Shown here: piece after piece, positions 20,251 through 50,338 of the stretch
How the letters are laid out: the number at the start of each line of letters is the position of its first letter
Position numbering within the stretch: the stretch's first letter is position 1
DNA from: Ruficoccus amylovorans
GTDB taxonomy: Bacteria > Verrucomicrobiota > Verrucomicrobiia > Opitutales > Cerasicoccaceae
Direction: 5' to 3'
Assembly: GCF_014230085.1 (NCBI RefSeq)
Contig: NZ_JACHVB010000013.1
Location: forward strand, 248,001 to 312,000
Length of the DNA stretch: 64,000 nt
Program-made: the position numbers and the translations under genes
The notes under the pieces: generated by a model
The model's database searches: none
What the model saw: only the letters and a program-made list of their open reading frames with translations
What the model was told of the DNA's origin: nothing

Positions 20251-20446
20251 GTCCAATACGCAGTCGAGGTAACGGCTTGGGCCCGGCATTGTAATCGACC
20301 ACGACGGCTGTGCCATCCCCTAATTGAGTCCAACAGCTATAACCGTTGTGGGCATGACAGTAGGGTTGTAGTCCAGACAGAGGACGGAGCGCCGCGAAAG
20401 GCATACGGGAAGCCTTGCGAAGCGCACCTCTTCCAGTCGATGGCAT
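20251..20446 (-). pseudogene. Fragment resembling the C-terminus of a BNR propeller gene
   Basis: The minus-strand frame gives HAHNGYSCWTQLGDGTAVVV followed by DYNAGPKPLP, very like the last blade of BNR proteins (compare DNGYPTTLQMEDGSLLTVCY of the 12.4-kb gene). The frame runs past this into the antisense of the pseudopilin gene without a proper end. No start or upstream blades exist. Probably the scar of a deleted paralogue of the next gene. Confidence 0.35.
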
Positions 20447-20482
20447 GATCGGAAACGTTTCGGACCTGCGCCAGGGAGTCCG

Positions 20483-33187: not shown

Positions 33188-33234
33188 AGCGCAAACTAAA
33201 GATGATGCCCCCAATACAATCTAAACCAGCTATT

Positions 33235-33993
33235 ATGAGAAATCCAATGCCCCCTACCCTCTTGACCACCGTCCTGGCCAGCCTGCTGTTGCCAGCCGCG
33301 CTCGCAGCGGAAACCGTCATGGAATGGACCTTCTCCAACCAGACGCCCGGCAGCCTTATCCAAACGGCCACCAGCACGGGAAGCCAGCAGGTACCCCTGA
33401 CCTCTCCGGTAGCCTTCGAGCCAGAAGCGGTGCAGACCGGAGAAACCGTCTCGGCCGGCTTTACGGCGGCGAAGCGCCAAATGCTGCTGAGCGAGGCAAC
33501 CAATGTACTCGCCTTTGAGGCCAACCAGCCGTTCACGATAGAACTCTGGTTCCAATACCACAGCACCTCCGACAGTGGCCGCTCCATGTTGAGCAACCGC
33601 GCCTTCAAAAGCCAGGACCCGGCAATGCCGGGCATAACGCTCATGATCAGAGGCACCGGATCGTCAGGGGCAAGAGGAGTCGGAGCGTTTATTGATTTCG
33701 GAGACCAGGATGTATTCCTGACCTCCACCACCCCGCTGGAACCTGACACCTGGCATCATCTGGCTGTACGCCGCGACGAGAAAGGCCGCCTCGACCTCGT
33801 GGTGGACCACAAGAGTGTGGACAGCGCAAAGACCACCCAGAATGGCCCCCTGCACTCTCCCCAACCTCTCTTCATTGGCCGCACCGCCAACAGCACCAGC
33901 GCCGACGGGTACTTTGACGGCATCATCCAGGCGGTACGGGTCTCGAACGCGTTCGTGTACGCAAAGGATTTTCTGACCAACCGGGCTGAATAA
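33235..33993 (+). CDS. Secreted LamG/concanavalin-A-like domain protein
   Basis: About 252 aa. Signal peptide TLLTTVLASLLLPAALAA, then one LamG-type jelly roll (FTIELWFQYHS, PDTWHHLAVRRDEKGRLDL, PLFIGRTANS, YFDGIIQAVRVSNA). It ends in DFLTNRAE without the PEP-CTERM anchor found on its convergent paralogue at 34410. Probably a glycan-binding or lyase-like surface/secreted module. ATGs at 33202, 33205 and 33247 are possible; 33235 best fits the signal peptide. Confidence 0.75.
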   Translation: MRNPMPPTLLTTVLASLLLPAALAAETVMEWTFSNQTPGSLIQTATSTGSQQVPLTSPVAFEPEAVQTGETVSAGFTAAKRQMLLSEATNVLAFEANQPFTIELWFQYHSTSDSGRSMLSNRAFKSQDPAMPGITLMIRGTGSSGARGVGAFIDFGDQDVFLTSTTPLEPDTWHHLAVRRDEKGRLDLVVDHKSVDSAKTTQNGPLHSPQPLFIGRTANSTSADGYFDGIIQAVRVSNAFVYAKDFLTNRAE

Positions 33994-37550: not shown

Positions 37551-37717
37551 ATGACCGCAAAACCTACCCCACGCCATCGCCCAAGGAAAACCTAAATGAG
37601 TTCACATATTAGAAATCCGTGTTTTACTGGGCCACAGGGTCACTTTTGACCGTCATTTCCCATGTATGAAATCGCCACCTCTTGCGATTTCCACCCCTTA
37701 ACGCCAAGTTACTTCCC

Positions 37718-38503
37718 ATGAGCCTGCTTCTCGGAAAAACCGCCGTGATCACCGGCGCGGCCCACGGCATCGGCCTCACCATCGCCCAGACCTTCGCCCG
37801 CGAGGGCGCCCGTATCGCCATGGGCGACATCGATCTGCCCGCGCTGGAGCGCGAGGCGGCGGCCATCCGGCAACAGTACGCCGTCGAGGTGCGCGCCGTT
37901 GCCTGCGATGTAACCTCCAGCGCCGAGGTCGGGCACTTGATCGCCACGGCGGTCGAAAAGCTGGGCGGCTGCGATATTTTAGTCAACAACGCCGCCGTCG
38001 CCCTCGGTGGCACGATCACCGACATGTCCGAGGAGGACTGGCAGCGCGTGCTGAACACCAACCTCACCAGCGCCTTCCGGACGATCCGCGCCGCGCTCCC
38101 CCACATGCTGGCAAAAGGCGTGGGCAGCATCATCAACATGGCCTCCACCCAGGCCCACCGCAGCTGGCCGCACTGGACGGCCTACGCCGCCGCCAAGGGC
38201 GGCCTGCTCGCCATGACCACGCAGCTCGCGGGCGAGTTCGCCGCCCGCGGCATCCGCGTCAACGCGCTCTCGCCGGGCGCGATCAACACCCCGATGAACG
38301 AACGCCGCATGCGCGAAGAGGGGCCGCAGCTGCGCGAACGCCTCAGCGCGATGCACGCGATGGAGCGCATGGGTGAACCGGACGAGGTCGCCGCCGCCGC
38401 GCTTTTTCTGGCCAGCGACGCCGCCAGTTTCATCACCGGACAGGACATCAAGGTCGATGGCGGTCTGTGCACCCTGCCCCGCTACCACGAACCCGAACAG
38501 TAA
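37718..38503 (+). CDS. Short-chain dehydrogenase/reductase (SDR)
   Basis: 261 aa classical SDR. Cofactor motif TGAAHGIG (about 12-19), NNAA in LVNNAAV, catalytic Tyr156 and Lys160 in YAAAK with the Ser in MASTQ, and the C-terminal SFITGQDIKVDGG. Oxidises or reduces a hydroxyl/keto group with NAD(P). ATG 37718 fits the fold. First gene of the four-gene operon; 7 bp before the CoA-transferase. Confidence 0.92.
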   Translation: MSLLLGKTAVITGAAHGIGLTIAQTFAREGARIAMGDIDLPALEREAAAIRQQYAVEVRAVACDVTSSAEVGHLIATAVEKLGGCDILVNNAAVALGGTITDMSEEDWQRVLNTNLTSAFRTIRAALPHMLAKGVGSIINMASTQAHRSWPHWTAYAAAKGGLLAMTTQLAGEFAARGIRVNALSPGAINTPMNERRMREEGPQLRERLSAMHAMERMGEPDEVAAAALFLASDAASFITGQDIKVDGGLCTLPRYHEPEQ

Positions 38504-41658: not shown

Positions 41659-42057
41659 TCCAGTCCCTAAGGTATTTACGGTTCAGGCAGACAACTGAAA
41701 GCTCACCTATCTCAGTTTGTTCGAAGGGGTTCCTCATGAAAGAGTAGGAACGCAGGCGTCAGTATGCGCGTCAGTGTGAAACGTAACAAGAGTGGGAAAA
41801 GATATTTTCTACCAAGCCCCCGGTAGAGGAGACACTTTTGGGCTGCATATGCCAACGCAAGCATTGATACGAATGCCTGCACGAATATGGAGGTGAGCTG
41901 AGTGATAATCGGGTAATTCGGAAGGTTGGGCTTTCCCTATTCGGGTGGGCGCGGGTGTAGTATGATGGCCTTACACGTAAGGGGTAAGGCGTCCCGCTCA
42001 AAAAAACGCCCAGTGCGTTTTAAAGACTAAAAAACCGCGCCTCGTCGCGCCCGGATC
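41659..42057. other. Non-coding boundary region before the relaxase gene
   Basis: About 400 bp without a credible gene. It separates the CoA operon from the mobile element and holds two strong inverted repeats close to the relaxase start, the expected place of a transfer origin. No tRNA or clear attachment repeat was recognised. Confidence 0.5.
41969..42021. other. Candidate oriT hairpins upstream of the MobF relaxase
   Basis: CCTTACACGTAAGG (41969-41982) is a perfect 6-bp-arm inverted repeat. AAAACGC-CCAGT-GCGTTTT (42003-42021) is a second, 7-bp-arm hairpin ending 36 bp before the relaxase ATG. MobF relaxases usually cut next to such repeats close to their own gene. The nic site itself cannot be named, and the second hairpin could instead be a terminator. 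Confidence 0.35.
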
Positions 42058-44544
42058 ATGCTCACGCCTAAGGCACAGTTCAACCTCAAGAATGCGAAGC
42101 AATACTTTCGTGAACACTTGAAGGTGGGCGATTACTACGCCCATGATAATGCCATTCAAGGTGAGTGGTTCGGCCAGGGTGCCGAGCGCTTGGGGCTGCG
42201 CGGTGCAGTCGGTGAACGCGAGTTCATGGAGCTGTGTGAAGGCAATAATCCGGCGACGGGGATGCGCCTGACGTTGCGCAAAAATACCACCCGCCAGGTC
42301 GGGGATCGGGAGGTAGCCAACCGAAGAATCTTCTATGACTTTACGATCAGCCCGCCCAAAAGCGTCTCGCTGATGGCGCTCTTTCAAGACAAACGACTGG
42401 TCAAAATCCACGACGAAGCCGTGCAAAAAGCGATGCGGGAACTGGAGACATTCGCCATGACCCGTGTGCGCAAATTGGGCCGTAGCGACGATCGCGAAAC
42501 CGGCAATGTGATCGGCGCGGCCTTCCGCCACGAAACCAGTCGGGCGCTCGATCCGCACCTGCACACGCACTGCGTGATCATGAATGCGACCTTCGACCCG
42601 GTGGAGAAACGCTGGAAGGCGTTGCAGAATTACGAGATGCTGAAGGCCCAAAAGTTTGTGGAAAATTACTACTACCACGAACTGGCCAAGGGGCTCCATC
42701 GCTACGGCTATCCGATCAAAAATAATGCCCGAGACTTCGAGTTGGAGGGTGTGTCCCCCGAGTTGATTGAGCGTTTCTCGAAGCGTCATCTGGAGATCGA
42801 TGAAGGCGTCAGGGAGTATCTGTCGAACGGTGAACGACCCGGCAATATCAAGGAACTGCGGGCGCAGATTGCGCATCAAAACCGTGCCCGGAAAATCCAC
42901 GCCTTTCCGCCGGAAAAACTACACGATCTCTGGCGGGAGCAAATGTCCGATGAAGAACGCGTGTCGATTGCGGTCGGCAGCCTGACACAGGGTGATCTGA
43001 AAGATGAGGCTGATGTACCCGCGCTGGTGGACTGGTCCGAGGCGCACGTTTTCGAGCGCAAATCCGTGACCGAAGATTACCGGCTCAAGGCCGCCGCGCT
43101 CGCCCGTGGCCGTGGCAAAACTTTTACGCTGGAGGAGCTCAACGCGGAGATGGAGCGGCGCGATTATCTGCGCGATGCCTATCACCCGCACTGGGTGAGC
43201 ACGAGCCAACTGCGAGAGCGTGAACAGGAGATCGTCAACATGGCGGTGCTGGGCGTGAACAGCCACCCGCCGTTCTGTGAAAATTACCAACCCTCCCCCG
43301 CCCTTTCCGATGAGCAAAAAGACGCCGTCCGGTCGCTGCTGGCGAGCGAGCATTTCGTGACGCTGTTCCGGGGCGGAGCCGGAACCGGCAAGACCTTCAC
43401 CTTGCAGGAAGTGGACCGGGGGCTGCGGCAGGCAGGCTTCCAGACGCTTGCCCTGGCCCCGCAGCGTCAGCAGGTGCTCGGGCTGCAACGCGACGGCTTC
43501 GAGGCGCAGACGCTGGGCCGGGACGAATTGGAACGCGCCTTCATCGCCGAATACCGCAATGTGGTCAAGGCGGCCTCTGAAGGGAAAGCGTTCGAATCTT
43601 TCGAGCGGCTGGACGCGATGGATTGCATCGAGGAAATCGACGGTGACGAACGCCGGGAGGCTCTGGCCTTCGATTACGTCGAGGCACGGAAGGCCGGAGA
43701 AAAAACGCTCGTCGTTTCGCAGACCTGGGACGAAATTCACGCTGTCAATGCTGCGGTGCGCCAGCGCCTCAAGGAAGAGGGCCTGCTCGGCAAGGATGTC
43801 CCGGTGACGCTCTACGAAAGCCGCGATTTGGACTCGGCCCAAAAGCAGGATGCTCGGTACTACCACCCCGGCGATCACGTTTATTTCATCCGCAAGTACG
43901 GGCGTTTCGCCAAAGGCGATCTGGTGCCGGTTGAATCCGTCGATGAAAACTCCCTCTCCCTCTGCAAAGATGGCAAGCTGTCCGCCGTCAGCCTGAAGCA
44001 GGCCGAACACTTCGTGGTGGTTCGGCCTCACTCCATCGAGCTGGCCCGGGGTGACCGACTCCAGTTGAAGTTCAACGGACGCTCCGAGGACGGCAAACCG
44101 CTGGACAATGGCGAACTCGTCACCGTGGCGCGGATTTTCAAAAACGGGCACCTGTCCGTGGTAGATGACCGGGGTGTCCGCAAGACGCTCGCGGCCAATC
44201 AGCACTTGGCCAACCTCGGCTACGCCGTCACCTCCTACGCCTCGCAGGGCAAGACCGTGGATACAGTGCTCTTCAGCGATTCTCAGAACCGCGCCGCCAC
44301 CGATCGGCGGCAGTGGTACGTCACCATTTCGCGGGCGCGGCGAAAGATCAAAATCTACACCGCCTCCAAAGAGTCCCTGCGCGAGAATCTCCTGCGCTCC
44401 GGCGACGAACCCCTCGCCATGGACCTGGAGTGCGCTTCGCCAAGGAAAGACGTGGCGGTCAAGCTGCCGCCGCGCCGGTCGCGAATCGATGACGACTACC
44501 CACTTCCTTCCGGCCCAAGCCAGTCGCACGGGATCAGTCTTTAG
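42058..44544 (+). CDS. MobF-family relaxase (TrwC-like) lacking the helicase motif II region
   Basis: 828 aa. N-terminal relaxase: Tyr16 and the Tyr26-Tyr27 pair (KQYFREHLKVGDYYAHDN) and the metal triad in DPHLHTHCVIMN (about 166-170). It nicks one DNA strand at oriT and stays bound to it. The C-terminal SF1 helicase has Walker A FRGGAGTGKTFTLQE (about 439), then jumps from GFEAQTLGRDE (about 480) to YRNVVKAASEGKAFESFERL. In relatives, about 80-90 residues with the DEAG Walker B and GDxxQ motifs lie between these points. Later helicase motifs remain (GYAVTSYASQGKTVDTV, WYVTISRARRKI). Nicking may work; unwinding should not. Confidence 0.88.
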   Translation: MLTPKAQFNLKNAKQYFREHLKVGDYYAHDNAIQGEWFGQGAERLGLRGAVGEREFMELCEGNNPATGMRLTLRKNTTRQVGDREVANRRIFYDFTISPPKSVSLMALFQDKRLVKIHDEAVQKAMRELETFAMTRVRKLGRSDDRETGNVIGAAFRHETSRALDPHLHTHCVIMNATFDPVEKRWKALQNYEMLKAQKFVENYYYHELAKGLHRYGYPIKNNARDFELEGVSPELIERFSKRHLEIDEGVREYLSNGERPGNIKELRAQIAHQNRARKIHAFPPEKLHDLWREQMSDEERVSIAVGSLTQGDLKDEADVPALVDWSEAHVFERKSVTEDYRLKAAALARGRGKTFTLEELNAEMERRDYLRDAYHPHWVSTSQLREREQEIVNMAVLGVNSHPPFCENYQPSPALSDEQKDAVRSLLASEHFVTLFRGGAGTGKTFTLQEVDRGLRQAGFQTLALAPQRQQVLGLQRDGFEAQTLGRDELERAFIAEYRNVVKAASEGKAFESFERLDAMDCIEEIDGDERREALAFDYVEARKAGEKTLVVSQTWDEIHAVNAAVRQRLKEEGLLGKDVPVTLYESRDLDSAQKQDARYYHPGDHVYFIRKYGRFAKGDLVPVESVDENSLSLCKDGKLSAVSLKQAEHFVVVRPHSIELARGDRLQLKFNGRSEDGKPLDNGELVTVARIFKNGHLSVVDDRGVRKTLAANQHLANLGYAVTSYASQGKTVDTVLFSDSQNRAATDRRQWYVTISRARRKIKIYTASKESLRENLLRSGDEPLAMDLECASPRKDVAVKLPPRRSRIDDDYPLPSGPSQSHGISL

Positions 44545-44582: not shown

Positions 44583-44961
44583 ATGTCATTAGCCGAAAAC
44601 GTCAAAAAATAAACTCGAAGCCTACCGCGCCGACGGGAGCCATTGCCACGCCTCCGGGCTTCACCGGCAGAAACGAACATCGCTCGCCATCATCACCCGC
44701 GACGGGCGGCGCTGGAACATGCCGTGGGCGCATCTGTTCTTCTCCTACTTCGATGCCCAGTCGGGCGCGGAGAACATCCATCTCAGCTACCGGACGCACG
44801 AGGTCACGGTCGAGGGGGAGCACTTGCAGGACTTGGCCGCCGAAATCGGGCGTTCCGAAGTCGAATGGATGCAGGCCTGCACGCAGGCATCGGACCAAGC
44901 CCGAGACTCGGACAGCCCCTTCATCACCAAGATCACTGTGTCAGAAAAGGGTAAACTTTAG
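44583..44961 (+). pseudogene. Small element protein, frameshifted in an A6 run
   Basis: ATG 44583 opens MSLAENVK and meets TAA after a run of six A. Skipping one base gives a continuous ~125-aa protein (NKLEAYRADGSHCHASGL, then TSLAIITRDGRRWNMPWAHL, ending VSEKGKL at 44961). The continuation is clearly protein-like and lies between the relaxase and coupling-protein genes. I do not know its function. The lesion is either real, a slippage site, or a homopolymer error in the sequence. Confidence 0.55.
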
Positions 44962-45018: not shown

Positions 45019-46556
45019 ATGCCTTATGGGAACCTTATCCTGAGCCTGTTCAGCGGCTCGGTAGCTTACGTGCTGCTCGGGCGCTCTTCGCCCCTGATCC
45101 CTCCGTCCACCGGCTACATTTTCGGAACGCTCTCCGCCTGGCAGTTTTTCCGCGAATGCCTGCGCCTGCATCTCGCGACGAGCGCAAAAGCCAAGACCAA
45201 GCCGGAGAGTAACCCGGTCGTTTTCCGCCTCGGACGCTTCACCTGGCGGCAGTCGGAGGCGTGCCGCCACTGGTTCGTCTCCGGTCAGACCGGCAGCGGG
45301 AAGACCTTCTTCTTTCGGCGCATGATCTGGCAATTGTGCGAGCATGTCCCCAACTGGGGCGGCCTCGTGCTCGATGAGAAGGGCGCGTTCATCGAAGTGT
45401 TGCGCGGTATCTTCAAGCACCATCCGACCAAAGAGGAAAGTGACCTGATCGTCATTGAAGTGCGCTCGGACGACAGCCCCGCCGACTGGCAGCCGCCGGT
45501 CACGTTCAACTTCCTGGAGGTGCCGGGCATCCCCTACTCCAACCACGCCAAGACCATCGTTGATGTCGCCAGTTCGCTGCTCGGCAAGGGCAGCGAAAAC
45601 CCGTATTTCCCGCAGCAGGCCACGATCCAGATCGAATGGGGCCTGCGCTGCCTGAAGGTCATCCGCGAGCCGGTCACGCTGAAGCGCTGCTACGAGTTGC
45701 TGACTAACGACGAGAACCTGAAGACGACCATGGATTTGCTCGAAGAGTTGAAAACGCCGGAGGCGCGAACGGTCTGGTCGCACTTTCAGTCGAGCTACCT
45801 CAGCCTCAATGAAGACACCTTCCGGGGCGTGCAATCGAGCATCGCCGGATACCTGAGCTATTTTACCAGCCCGGAGATCGCGGAGGTCTTTTGTCCGAAA
45901 GGGCCTTCGACCCTCCGCCTGTCCGATCTGGACGCGGGCAAAGTCGTCACCGTCTCCCCGCCCCAGAAATACGCCGTCGAGCGAAAATACATCTACACGC
46001 TCCTGAAGCTGACGTTCTACAAACACGGGATTCAGCGCTTCGACCGGACGCAGAGCGAACGCGACGGACACAACCTGCTGGTCGGGCTCTTCGACGAATT
46101 TCAGAAGGTGGCGACGGCCAGCGGGGCCGGGCTCAGCGATTACAACACCGTGGACACGCTCCGCGAGGCCAAGGTCATGGGTCATGACCGGCACGCAGTC
46201 CACGCAGAGCCTCGTCCCGCCCATGGGCGCGGACAAGGCCAAGGTCTTTATCGCCAACATGGCCAACCGGGTCATTTTCAAGGCCGCCGACGAAGAGAGC
46301 GCCAAGACCGCCGCCGACTGTCTCGGCAAGCACGAGGTCTGGCGCAAATCCCATGGCGTCTCCGGCGGCAAGCGCTCCTTCAACAAGCACAGGGAAGACC
46401 GCTACTACGTCCAGCCGCATGAGTTCCCGCAAGCTGCGGAAATTCGAGTGCGTCCTCCAGCACTGCGAAGGCCCTTGGCAGAAACTAACCCTCCCGCCCA
46501 TCGGCCTCGACGGCCAAGTCTGCGAGTGGTGGTCCAAAGCGAGACGGCAACGCTGA
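45019..46556 (+). pseudogene. TraD/VirD4-like coupling ATPase with two C-terminal frameshifts
   Basis: Frame 1 (45019 to about 46180) encodes two N-terminal hydrophobic stretches, Walker A GQTGSGKTFFF (about 89), LVLDEKGAF, and a C-terminal TVDTLREAKVMG. An extra G near 46180 moves the reading to a second frame (TGTQSTQSLVPPMGADKAKV to about 46420), and an extra C in CCC moves it to a third (RKLRKFECVLQ, GLDGQVCEWWSKARRQR, stop 46556). Coupling proteins bring relaxase-DNA to the secretion channel. No channel genes are present. The gene end overlaps the convergent helicase gene by 72 bp. Confidence 0.75.
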
Positions 46557-48572
46557 ATCAGCAACAGGCTCGGCCAAGAGGCAGGCCCGCGTATGGGCAT
46601 TTTTGTAGATCACGACAAGCTTCTGCGCGGCCCGGGTGATCGCGACGAAGACCTTTTTAGTATTCTTGCGGATCAACTCCTCCCGGTCAGTGTCGTCCAA
46701 GCTCAGGGCTCCTTCCTGCTCGAACAAGCGATCCAGACCAATGACAACAACGATCGGCGACTCAATCCCTGTACAGGCGTTGATCGTGGTGATTCGCATC
46801 TGGGTACGATCCGTCGCATCTGAGGCTGAGACAATGCGCCCCTTAAAGTGAGCCTCCAGATGCGCCCGCTCATGCAGCTCACCGAAGCCGGAGGCGTCGA
46901 TCAGGAGCACATTACCCGGATTGAGTCCGCTCTCAAAGAGCTGCTTGAGCTGCTCGATCAAGACATTCTGGACTGACCGGCTACCGGCTTGAATGAGCTG
47001 CGGCTCCTCCCCGGCTGGCATGGAATCGATGTAGGCCTGATCCGGCAGGTTGACCTCATCTTCCTCGCTGCCCACACGGCTCATGTAAAAGCGTTTGGCC
47101 AGCGCCATGATAGGCCGCGTGTTGCGGTAGGGACGGGTCAGCCGCTGGGAGCGTCCCCGCATGTCGCCGCCCAGAACCTGCACCCAGGATTGACCGCTAC
47201 GCAAGAATCCCTGCGTGGGATCGGCGGCCATAAAGAGACGCCCGCAATCTGGATGCAGCGACTGGCGCACACATTCGAACCAGATGGGGGCAAAGAACTG
47301 CGCCTCATCGATGTAGATCGTGTGGTAGGTATTGCCCGTGATTTCACCCTCACGCAGCTTTTTCAAAAAGAGCCGGGGCACCACGGGCCAGTCCACCCGC
47401 TTGTCCTCATCGAGCATCTTGCGGTAGTTCAGATACAGGCGATAGACGCCGTGCCGCTGCGTAGCTTGAAGCGCCCGCTTACGCCCCGTTCGTTCACTCT
47501 GCAAATACCAGTCAAGGGTGGGATTCTCCAGCGCGTTGTCCGAGATCCATTCAAACTCTTCGAGCAGAAACTCTCGCGTGAACTGCCCTTCCAGTTTGGC
47601 GTCCTTCAATGCCTGATCCAGATAGTCATTCCGCGTGGCCGGGTCGATGGTTTCGAAATGCATCATTGAGCGCAGCCAACTGTAAAAGGTCCGCCATTCA
47701 ATGTTGCCCGACATCCCCAACTCGCGTGCCCGGTTGGCCAGATCCGCCCGCAACGGCTTATTGTGCATCAAAACCAGGACGCGCTGGCTGGTATCAAGGC
47801 TGGCGGAGAGGCGGGCGCGAAAAAGCAGGATGAGGGTTTTCCCACAGCCAGCCGTGCCGGTAACCAAACGCACATGCCCGGAACTAGCCGCCTTGAAAGC
47901 TTCACTGGAAAGCTCCAGGTCACGCTTCATCGCCGCCTCCTGATCATAGTCCAGCAGAAAGTCCATCTGCTGAGGAACCGCTTTATCGGCCAGTCGCTCC
48001 GCCCGCGTCACCCAATGTGCCGGGATCGCCGCCTCCGGCGCAAAGCGACCCACGATCAGATTGAGCACCTGCTGATCCAGTTCCCGGTCATCGGCGGATT
48101 TGAGGTGGTGCAACAGGGCTTCACTCCGACAGGCCTGCTTGCCCAAAAACAAATAGGGAGCCCCCTGCCAGCTTTGCGCCAGCCGCCCCACCGAGTCATC
48201 GGAAGCCTTGGGAAAGAGGACCCAGTGTTGCAGAGGAATGTCCGCCCCGGCCCCGAGTTCTTCAAGCACCAGGCGGGTAAACGCATCCAGACTGTGCGCC
48301 TGCTTCAGGCCAACGGGCGGCTCCCCGCGATCCTCCAGCAAGTCTCCCTGAAAATACCGCTCCACGTCTTCTGTGTCTGCACTGCTGACAGCCAACAAAA
48401 AGGCCGCCCGGTTGCGGTAGATAACAAGGAAGTCCGGGTAATCCGCATTTCCCACCTGAAAACTGATGCGGCAAATCAGCTCGTCATCGTCGATCGCCTT
48501 CAATTGCCGCCATACCTTCACGAGGTGCTCGGGAAGCTTCAGGGGCAGTCGGTCTGGTAACATACGGGCCAT
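46485..48572 (-). CDS. UvrD/Rep-like SF1A helicase with N-terminal extension
   Basis: About 695 aa from ATG 48572 (an in-frame extension to 48617 overlaps the upstream gene). The first ~190 residues (ISFQVGNADYPDFLVIYRNR) resemble a NERD/nuclease-like beta fold, but I cannot see a clear catalytic set. Helicase motifs: Walker A LVTGTAGCGKTLILL (about 238), IYIDEAQFF (about 418), AADPTQGF, RLTRPYRNTRPI and motif VI VFVAITRAAQKLVV. DNA-dependent ATPase/translocase. Starts 2 bp after the stop of the other helicase, so one operon. Its last ~20 codons lie antisense to the coupling-protein gene. Confidence 0.8.
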   Translation of the reverse strand: MARMLPDRLPLKLPEHLVKVWRQLKAIDDDELICRISFQVGNADYPDFLVIYRNRAAFLLAVSSADTEDVERYFQGDLLEDRGEPPVGLKQAHSLDAFTRLVLEELGAGADIPLQHWVLFPKASDDSVGRLAQSWQGAPYLFLGKQACRSEALLHHLKSADDRELDQQVLNLIVGRFAPEAAIPAHWVTRAERLADKAVPQQMDFLLDYDQEAAMKRDLELSSEAFKAASSGHVRLVTGTAGCGKTLILLFRARLSASLDTSQRVLVLMHNKPLRADLANRARELGMSGNIEWRTFYSWLRSMMHFETIDPATRNDYLDQALKDAKLEGQFTREFLLEEFEWISDNALENPTLDWYLQSERTGRKRALQATQRHGVYRLYLNYRKMLDEDKRVDWPVVPRLFLKKLREGEITGNTYHTIYIDEAQFFAPIWFECVRQSLHPDCGRLFMAADPTQGFLRSGQSWVQVLGGDMRGRSQRLTRPYRNTRPIMALAKRFYMSRVGSEEDEVNLPDQAYIDSMPAGEEPQLIQAGSRSVQNVLIEQLKQLFESGLNPGNVLLIDASGFGELHERAHLEAHFKGRIVSASDATDRTQMRITTINACTGIESPIVVVIGLDRLFEQEGALSLDDTDREELIRKNTKKVFVAITRAAQKLVVIYKNAHTRACLLAEPVADSALPSRFGPPLADLAVEADGREG

Positions 48573-48574
48573 GG

Positions 48575-50338
48575 CTAGACTTCGATAAAGTGGCTCGCCT
48601 CCCGCAAGCTTCGCCAATGCTCAATGGCCTCCCGTGCCTCGTCGCTGGCGCCCTCGGTCTTCAGAAAGTTATCAGCCGCCAGCACAATCAGCTTCACCTT
48701 GGCACGGCTGACAATGACATTCAGACGCGAAGGCAGGTAGATAAACTCCTGGATGGCGCTCAAGAACCGGACATCGGCTGCCGCCGTGCTCATGATAATG
48801 ACACTGCGTTCCTGGCCCTGCATACGCTCAACGGTATCAACCACCACCTGTTGTAATTCTGCCGGGTCCCACACGCGGTTCTGCCTCAGACGCTGCCGAA
48901 TGACCCGCCCTTGCCGACGAAACGGCGTAATCACGCCGACATCCCCGATCGGATGGCCCCGCCGGTGCAGTTCCGTCATCAACTGATTGACGAGGTCGGC
49001 CTCCTCCATCGAATAGTGACGGGTGGCCTCTACCTGAGTCGGAACCCATACCAGGCTGTGTTCTTCGCTCAAGGCCTCCCCTAACCAAGGCTGGCCGGGA
49101 TGGCTGCTCAATCGCAGGGCCTTGTCACGGCAACTCTCGTGGGGCTCCAGCTCGCCCGCATAAAACTCCGAACTGACCCAGCGGCAAATTTCTCCATTCA
49201 GACGGTGAGTGACGGTCAACATCTCGCGATCGGCGGCAGAACGCAGCCGCTGGAAAAGTCCGTAGTCCTTCGCCTCGAACGAACTCTTGGACGCCAGCAC
49301 CGGTGGCAACTGCTTTTCATCTCCGATCACAACATAGGTGTCCGCGCTGAGCATAGCCATGACCGCCAAGGGAAGCGTCATCTGACTGGCCTCATCAATA
49401 ATCACGCAGTCAAAATCCGCCCGCTTGAGCCGCTCGCTAAACGCGGCAAAGGGCGTCGCCCCGATGACGTAACCCTCCGTACGGTCATCAAAGCCGCACT
49501 CGGCAAAGTTTTCATAGACGGGTGCCTCCAGCGTCTCGTCATAACCGGCCACACCGACCTTAGCGACCCGTTCGAGCTCCGGATTCATCTCACACACCTT
49601 GTTCAGGGCCTCGTGAATGGCCCGGTGCGTACAAGCCGTGACCAGAATACGCTGGCCCAGAGCCAGCCGCTGCCGGACGATTTGGGCCAGCACACGCGTT
49701 TTCCCTGTTCCAGGGGGGCCCTGAATCAGCGCGCACCAGTTAGTGGCTGCGCCCATCCCCACGGCCTCCTGCTGAGAATCGTTAAAACCAGCCTCGGTGG
49801 CGGCAGAGGCCGCCGCGTCGTACTCGTAAGGATCTAACCCGTCGGACTGCGCATGGCCTTCGATCAGGGGAAGAATCCGGCTCCGCCCACGCTCCGTCGC
49901 CCCCATTTCGTCCAGGGCCCGATTCAATTGCGGGGCTAAATCGATGAAGCCCGCATCCAGCGTAAAAACGCCCTGCCCCTGGGTGATATGCTTGGCGTCG
50001 GACTCGGAGAAAGAGACCTCAATGAATTCACGTCCGCTCTGGGTCGGACCATCGCCCACCCAAAATCCCAGGGCCAACGGCTCAAAGGGATTACCCGTAT
50101 GGAGCATAATCCGATCCCCCTCGCGAAACTCGGACAGGTTCTCCTCACACTCGAAGCGCAGGATATTGCCCTCTCGCCGCTGTCGGCAGCTTATCTTCTC
50201 CAGACACTTGCCTTGCAGCACCCGCTCCCCCACGGTCATCCGCAGCAGCTTTTCATGGCTCGCCTGCTGCGCCCGGGATTCTTCGGCAACCAGCTCTTTA
50301 AGCTCCTGAAAGATGGCTAGATAGTTCTGCGTCGACAT
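48575..50338 (-). CDS. DNA2/UPF1-like SF1B helicase
   Basis: 587 aa. N-terminal OB/stalk region, Walker A LIQGPPGTGKTRVLAQ (about 208), CVIIDEASQMTLPLA (about 314), GDEKQLPPV, LTVTHRLNGEICRWVS, VGVITPFRRQ, DTVERMQGQERSVIIMS and SRLNVIVSRAKVKLIV: a complete AAA_11/AAA_12 helicase. Relatives unwind DNA or RNA 5'-3' and recur in several anti-phage systems. It directly precedes the UvrD-like helicase gene. Function here is inferred from the pairing and mobile location only. Confidence 0.85.
   Translation of the reverse strand: MSTQNYLAIFQELKELVAEESRAQQASHEKLLRMTVGERVLQGKCLEKISCRQRREGNILRFECEENLSEFREGDRIMLHTGNPFEPLALGFWVGDGPTQSGREFIEVSFSESDAKHITQGQGVFTLDAGFIDLAPQLNRALDEMGATERGRSRILPLIEGHAQSDGLDPYEYDAAASAATEAGFNDSQQEAVGMGAATNWCALIQGPPGTGKTRVLAQIVRQRLALGQRILVTACTHRAIHEALNKVCEMNPELERVAKVGVAGYDETLEAPVYENFAECGFDDRTEGYVIGATPFAAFSERLKRADFDCVIIDEASQMTLPLAVMAMLSADTYVVIGDEKQLPPVLASKSSFEAKDYGLFQRLRSAADREMLTVTHRLNGEICRWVSSEFYAGELEPHESCRDKALRLSSHPGQPWLGEALSEEHSLVWVPTQVEATRHYSMEEADLVNQLMTELHRRGHPIGDVGVITPFRRQGRVIRQRLRQNRVWDPAELQQVVVDTVERMQGQERSVIIMSTAAADVRFLSAIQEFIYLPSRLNVIVSRAKVKLIVLAADNFLKTEGASDEAREAIEHWRSLREASHFIEV

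Follow-up and report, generated by a model that had tools for sequence, protein, structure and literature searches.

In-frame loss of helicase motifs II and III from a MobF relaxase in a probably decaying conjugative module of Ruficoccus amylovorans

The relaxases TrwC of R388 and TraI of F and pKM101 combine an N-terminal HUH trans-esterase, a superfamily 1 helicase region and a translocation-signal-like part, and they are the best sequence and fold matches of a protein of Ruficoccus amylovorans that has the same three parts. Unlike these relaxases, the R. amylovorans protein has a single recognised helicase domain that lacks motifs II and III. According to PMC5422253, F TraI contains a vestigial helicase domain without Walker B and Walker A, which no longer drives unwinding and binds ssDNA, while a second helicase domain of the same protein is kept active. 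The helicase of the R. amylovorans protein resembles the vestigial domain, as described there, in having no Walker B, but it is cut inside the fold and Walker A is still present. A second point of comparison is TrwC N293, a relaxase fragment described in PMC6049929 as nicking, yet insufficient for site-specific integration in bacteria; it resembles the R. amylovorans protein as a nicking domain without a motor, but was engineered. No natural helicase-deleted MobF was described among the matches listed in a literature search, as far as their titles and the openings of their abstracts tell.

The gene lies in a stretch of 64,000 nt analysed here at its full length (the window), and the nearest relative of its product is the MobF of Verrucomicrobiota bacterium JB024 (locus L001; 92% identical, 913 aa). 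Both genomes have the same gene order with syntenic upstream genes, but JB024 differs from the window in having a complete helicase, a complete small gene and a complete TraD. The features concerned are, in window coordinates:

41932..42057, + strand: conserved leader directly 5′ of mobF, candidate oriT (5-locus alignment)
42058..44544, + strand: mobF, TrwC-type relaxase with a remnant superfamily 1 helicase, 828 aa (PF08751, AAA_30, NF041492)
43511..43512, + strand: point at which 252 bp are missing in frame, with the loss of 84 aa that hold motif II, motif III and the IRRQDP segment (alignment with JB024 and relatives)
44583..44961, + strand: small-gene remnant between mobF and traD (frameshift near 44604, ends after 9 codons)
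45019..46640, + strand: remnant of traD (type IV coupling protein), frameshifts near 46179 and near 46426
46485..48617, − strand: UvrD-like helicase gene, possible defence cargo (PADLOC C3a187 (NERD+UvrD) 91 bits, partial; weak UvrD/HelD matches)
48575..50338, − strand: SF1 (AAA_11/AAA_12) helicase gene, possible defence cargo (AAA_12, TIGR00376, PADLOC MkoA)

The mobF reading frame (42058-44544) is open throughout, with no stop or frameshift over 828 codons, and its product is a MobF/TrwC relaxase-helicase (NF041492, 230 bits against a cut-off of 100). The relaxase domain is full-length, matching PF08751 (TrwC) over profile positions 2-284 of 286 with 266.5 bits; the HUH motif DPHLHTH is present, and the N-terminal tyrosines Y16, Y26 and Y27, the candidates for the catalytic residue, are invariant across 13 aligned proteins. 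The TrwC nicking domain is complete, and nicking activity is predicted from its sequence. The helicase profile AAA_30, which matches the intact JB024 MobF with 131.8 bits over positions 2-188, gives 60.9 bits on the 828-aa protein and covers positions 2-74 of 191 only. Walker A (GGAGTGKT at residue 439) and the late segments TSYASQGKTVDTVLF and YVTISRARRK are retained. Directly upstream, an alignment of five loci showed conservation of roughly the last 130 bases before mobF only, with the DNA match of locus L003 to the window starting at 41932 and an inverted repeat (CCTTAC-AC-GTAAGG, 41969-41982) inside the conserved part, making this leader a candidate oriT.

At the DNA level both flanks align between the window and JB024, with a single 252-base gap at 43511/43512, so that the window protein passes directly from GFEAQTL to GRDELERAFIAEYRNVVKAAS with neither DEAG nor GDxxQ between. 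Among the 84 residues lost are IVDEAGQ (motif II), LSGDTRQHGAVEAS (motif III, reading SGDTRQ) and the segment IRRQDP, which we take to be motif IV; a further gap, of 3 bases near 44464, accounts for the one residue by which the length still differs from JB024. The left edge of the deletion reads ACGCTGGC in L003 and the right edge GGCTGGGCC in JB024, which makes it plausible that both edges shared GCTGG in the ancestor and that this served as a slip site. A search of the genome assembly (4.5 Mb, 64 contigs) did not find the missing segment elsewhere. The initial annotation, which had proposed a MobF protein without motifs II and III at an in-frame junction, with Walker A and the later motifs intact and with the nicking domain and C-terminal motifs still translated, is thus borne out by the ORF, which stays open to 44544 and by its sequence encodes all of these parts, and by the alignment with JB024. 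A superfamily 1 helicase needs residues held in the lost segment, and the motor of the 828-aa protein is almost certainly dead. We searched the DExx and GDxxQ strings of the protein for a substitute motif II or III and found none that was correctly placed: other DExx strings exist, such as DEAD at 316, which lies upstream of Walker A and is not kept in L001, L002, L003 or L009, and GDRLQ at 665 lies far downstream, at a position where G, D, L and Q do not vary among the 13 aligned proteins.

A search of 273 genomes sampled from the order, including that of R. amylovorans itself, gave a MobF match in 39, and among these 39 the window's own was the only one to match query residues 1-828 without a break. 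Motif inspection covered the matches whose locus was retrieved, and comprised 41 ORF rows besides the window, omitting L012 (same contig as L001) and L011 (the window itself). Four rows were fragments without the region (L020, L030 and one half each of L010 and L028), and six of the other 37 were loci fetched twice (L013, L014, L016, L018, L050 and the other half of L028), as checked by their shared sequence, leaving 31 distinct loci. Thirty of these have ORFs of at least 861 aa (that of L026 reaches its contig end), and in the remaining one, L010, the gene is interrupted at a point beyond the region. All 31 distinct loci with an ORF extending into the region carry motif II (as DEAG, DESG or DEYG) and motif III (GDxxQ), in a block of 82–88 residues with near-constant spacing, while the window has neither. 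This agrees with the expectation that the two segments lie between Walker A and the later motifs in TrwC/TraI relatives, and the alignment with full-length MobF proteins, proposed together with it as a check, confines the deletion to the window among the inspected loci; the same deletion was seen in no other inspected genome. Other broken or partial MobF genes do occur in the order (L010/L028, L020 and G020:C1:1016808-1017518), and relaxase decay is therefore not rare there.

The two genes that follow mobF in the operon, in the order mobF, small gene, traD, are also damaged. In the small gene a one-base difference from JB024 near 44604 shifts the frame, and homology continues in another frame from 44605. 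In traD there are two one-base changes relative to JB024, near 46179 (codon ~387 of 511) and near 46426 (codon ~469), with the TrwB/TraG-D C-terminal domain being lost through the shift at codon ~387. JB024 TraD matches TrwB_AAD_bind (PF10412, residues 380-492), TraG-D_C (PF12696, 357-473) and T4SS-DNA_transf (PF02534, 228-477), whereas the window traD ORF has none of these and matches DUF87 only, below its cut-off; the window therefore has no intact type IV coupling protein. Searches of the genome found no second copy of the window TraD and no second MobF, and PF02534, the one of the three TraD families that was searched genome-wide, gave no match at E 0.001. The shift near 46426 recurs in a 3′ fragment of traD in JB024 (L001 17588-17855), located at the contig end about 4.9 kb past the intact traD and 97% identical to the window over 269 bases, which is what remains of another traD copy at the same location; in JB024, L003 and L007 the complete TraD copies run in one continuous frame without this shift. 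Since it is present in an independent assembly, the shift is not a sequencing error and decay at the site is real. It most simply predates the split of the window and JB024 lineages, and being near the 3′ end it may have had a mild effect.

Upstream of mobF the picture differs, as all 17 genes at 20483-41658 are in one piece relative to JB024 (at least 89% of their length), compared with damage to all three operon genes (Fisher p 0.0009, with the choice of ORFs counted as genes being ours and the comparison picked after the lesions were known). One of the 17, at 33202-33993, has a JB024 match that begins at residue 33 of 299. Breakage is not limited to the operon, since a gene that borders the syntenic block on the left, and whose JB024 counterpart encodes 552 aa (C35 25911-27569), is also reduced to fragments (window 20264-20471); when this remnant and the adjoining intact gene are counted (1/19 broken), the excess in the operon is about p 0.003. 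Past 46603 the JB024 contig offers no match to the genes of the window. DNA difference from JB024 is mostly 11–17% in the relaxase part of mobF (83–89% identity), versus about 5% in the upstream block, and recombination near mobF is probable.

Substitutions were assigned to the window and JB024 branches using five sequences, of which three were outgroups and two of these (L002, L009) came from the JB024 assembly; the test rests on few sites, and excluded codons or sites with a gap in any sequence, with fewer than two outgroups agreeing, or where window and JB024 both deviated. In the helicase part the ratio of synonymous to replacement changes was 27 to 19 on the window branch versus 27 to 5 on the JB024 branch (p 0.024), and 30 to 26 versus 40 to 9 when the linker was added (p 0.003), while the relaxase part, with 26 to 10 versus 37 to 17 (p 0.82), had no replacement excess and a low dN/dS. 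The helicase-part excess is compatible with relaxed constraint on a motor that no longer works, but is suggestive only, because it is small and because of the probable recombination near mobF. AlphaFold models built from 13 sequences were of modest confidence (mean pLDDT 66.8 for the window protein and 72.3 for JB024) and serve as support only. In the JB024 model the first RecA-like subdomain has predicted strands at 434-438, 462-467, 499-503 and 527-531, whereas the window model, from residue 230 to 523, has no strand as long as three residues. Foldseek matched the window model to TraI and TrwC relaxase structures and to the TraI translocation-signal domain 4l0j, with low TM-scores (0.24–0.26 by query length) for the matches to full TraI.

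The helicase pair at 46485-50338, about 2 kb away, had been suggested as a possible source of unwinding activity in trans, a role which the profile searches do not favour. Neither gene has a TraI or TrwC family match, and the matches that they do have, to UvrD-like, IGHMBP2-like and defence helicases, are partial or below cut-off. The gene at 48575-50338 matches AAA_12 with 109.4 bits, TIGR00376 (IGHMBP2-like) with 195.7 bits, below the cut-off of 348.9, and PADLOC MkoA partially with 193.7 bits, about equal to the TIGR00376 score. The same position after traD is occupied by GajA and GajB (Gabija) in L003 (12812-16560) and by a CapP-like gene in L001 (12805-13629), and these different, partly defence-like genes suggest the traD 3′ end as a cargo site. 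The pair is thus better read as cargo than as transfer helicases, and may form a defence system.

The genome does contain T4SS ATPase and channel genes. These are located at the start of contig C12, include a TraC/VirB4-like ORF of 924 aa (VirB4 family below cut-off, P-loop_TraG over cut-off) and a TrbI-like ORF of 350 aa, and are unbroken relative to JB024, so the transfer channel may still be working. In JB024 the T4SS cluster is on the mobF contig, about 30 kb apart, and about 24 kb between cluster and mobF (L048-L050, G129:C35, about 25–49 kb) are mostly syntenic with window 19374-41658. A TraC-like gene lies <3 kb from mobF in G020 and G039, and is present in 6/10 genomes of the family (R. 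amylovorans included). The mobF module of the window most likely derives from an integrated conjugative element. A relaxase of a type different from MobF, the MobA/VirD2 type (PF03432), is encoded by a 375-aa ORF on contig C34 (L052, G000:C34).

The locus is most likely a conjugative module in decay (mobF, the small gene and traD), belonging to a Verrucomicrobiota element, and its only MobF relaxase has suffered an in-frame loss of 252 bp, for which slippage or end joining at a few shared bases is the probable cause. An open frame is the outcome of one deletion in three, and selection is therefore not required to explain it. Provided that it is expressed and stable, the protein could retain binding and nicking of its oriT, but productive ATP hydrolysis and DNA unwinding would be lost, and as the coupling protein is truncated, the module would not support self-transfer. 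Against decay count the mobF frame itself, without stop or frameshift over 828 codons, the unbroken T4SS genes on C12 and the conserved candidate oriT. The same observations would suit a specialised MobF which has lost its motor, has kept the nicking domain and the downstream translocation-signal region, and leaves unwinding to a helicase of the host or the neighbourhood, as would the retained HUH site and tyrosines, the C-terminal part matching 4l0j and the low dN/dS of the relaxase part. The small gene and traD are frameshifted, however, every other inspected genome lacks the deletion, the nearby helicases are not of the conjugative type, and the low dN/dS would mostly have been inherited from before the deletion, leaving such a specialised relaxase improbable. 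The fuller version of this idea, a natural helicase-dead MobF maintained as a nick-only, self-translocating relaxase served by the unbroken T4SS, an unrecognised coupling protein and a host helicase, is very unlikely. The earlier view of a relaxase that nicks but cannot unwind therefore stands as far as the complete nicking domain and the lost motor motifs are concerned, but not as a working system, given its broken partner genes.

An assembly or sequencing artefact that dropped the 252 bp is also unlikely. The junction does rest on one assembly of the genome, but the edges in relatives share a few bases only, too short for repeat collapse, and the missing segment was found on no other contig; furthermore, the genes just upstream of mobF have no net indel within their reading frames except for one base near the start of 37682-38503, and the nearby traD lesion recurs in an independent assembly. 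A helicase kept active by a motif II at another place in the sequence, for which the remaining Walker A, the late segments and the existence of other DExx strings could be cited, is scarcely credible, with AAA_30 ending at profile position 74, the near-constant spacing in relatives, a window model predicted without the RecA-like sheet, and the DEAD at 316 preceding Walker A and not being conserved.

As a decaying module, the locus is an example of an ordinary event in conjugative elements, which matters little as it stands. It does warn against taking every clean in-frame deletion between intact motifs for a new design. Should the protein prove functional, the question would arise whether MobF relaxases depend on a motor of their own for transfer.
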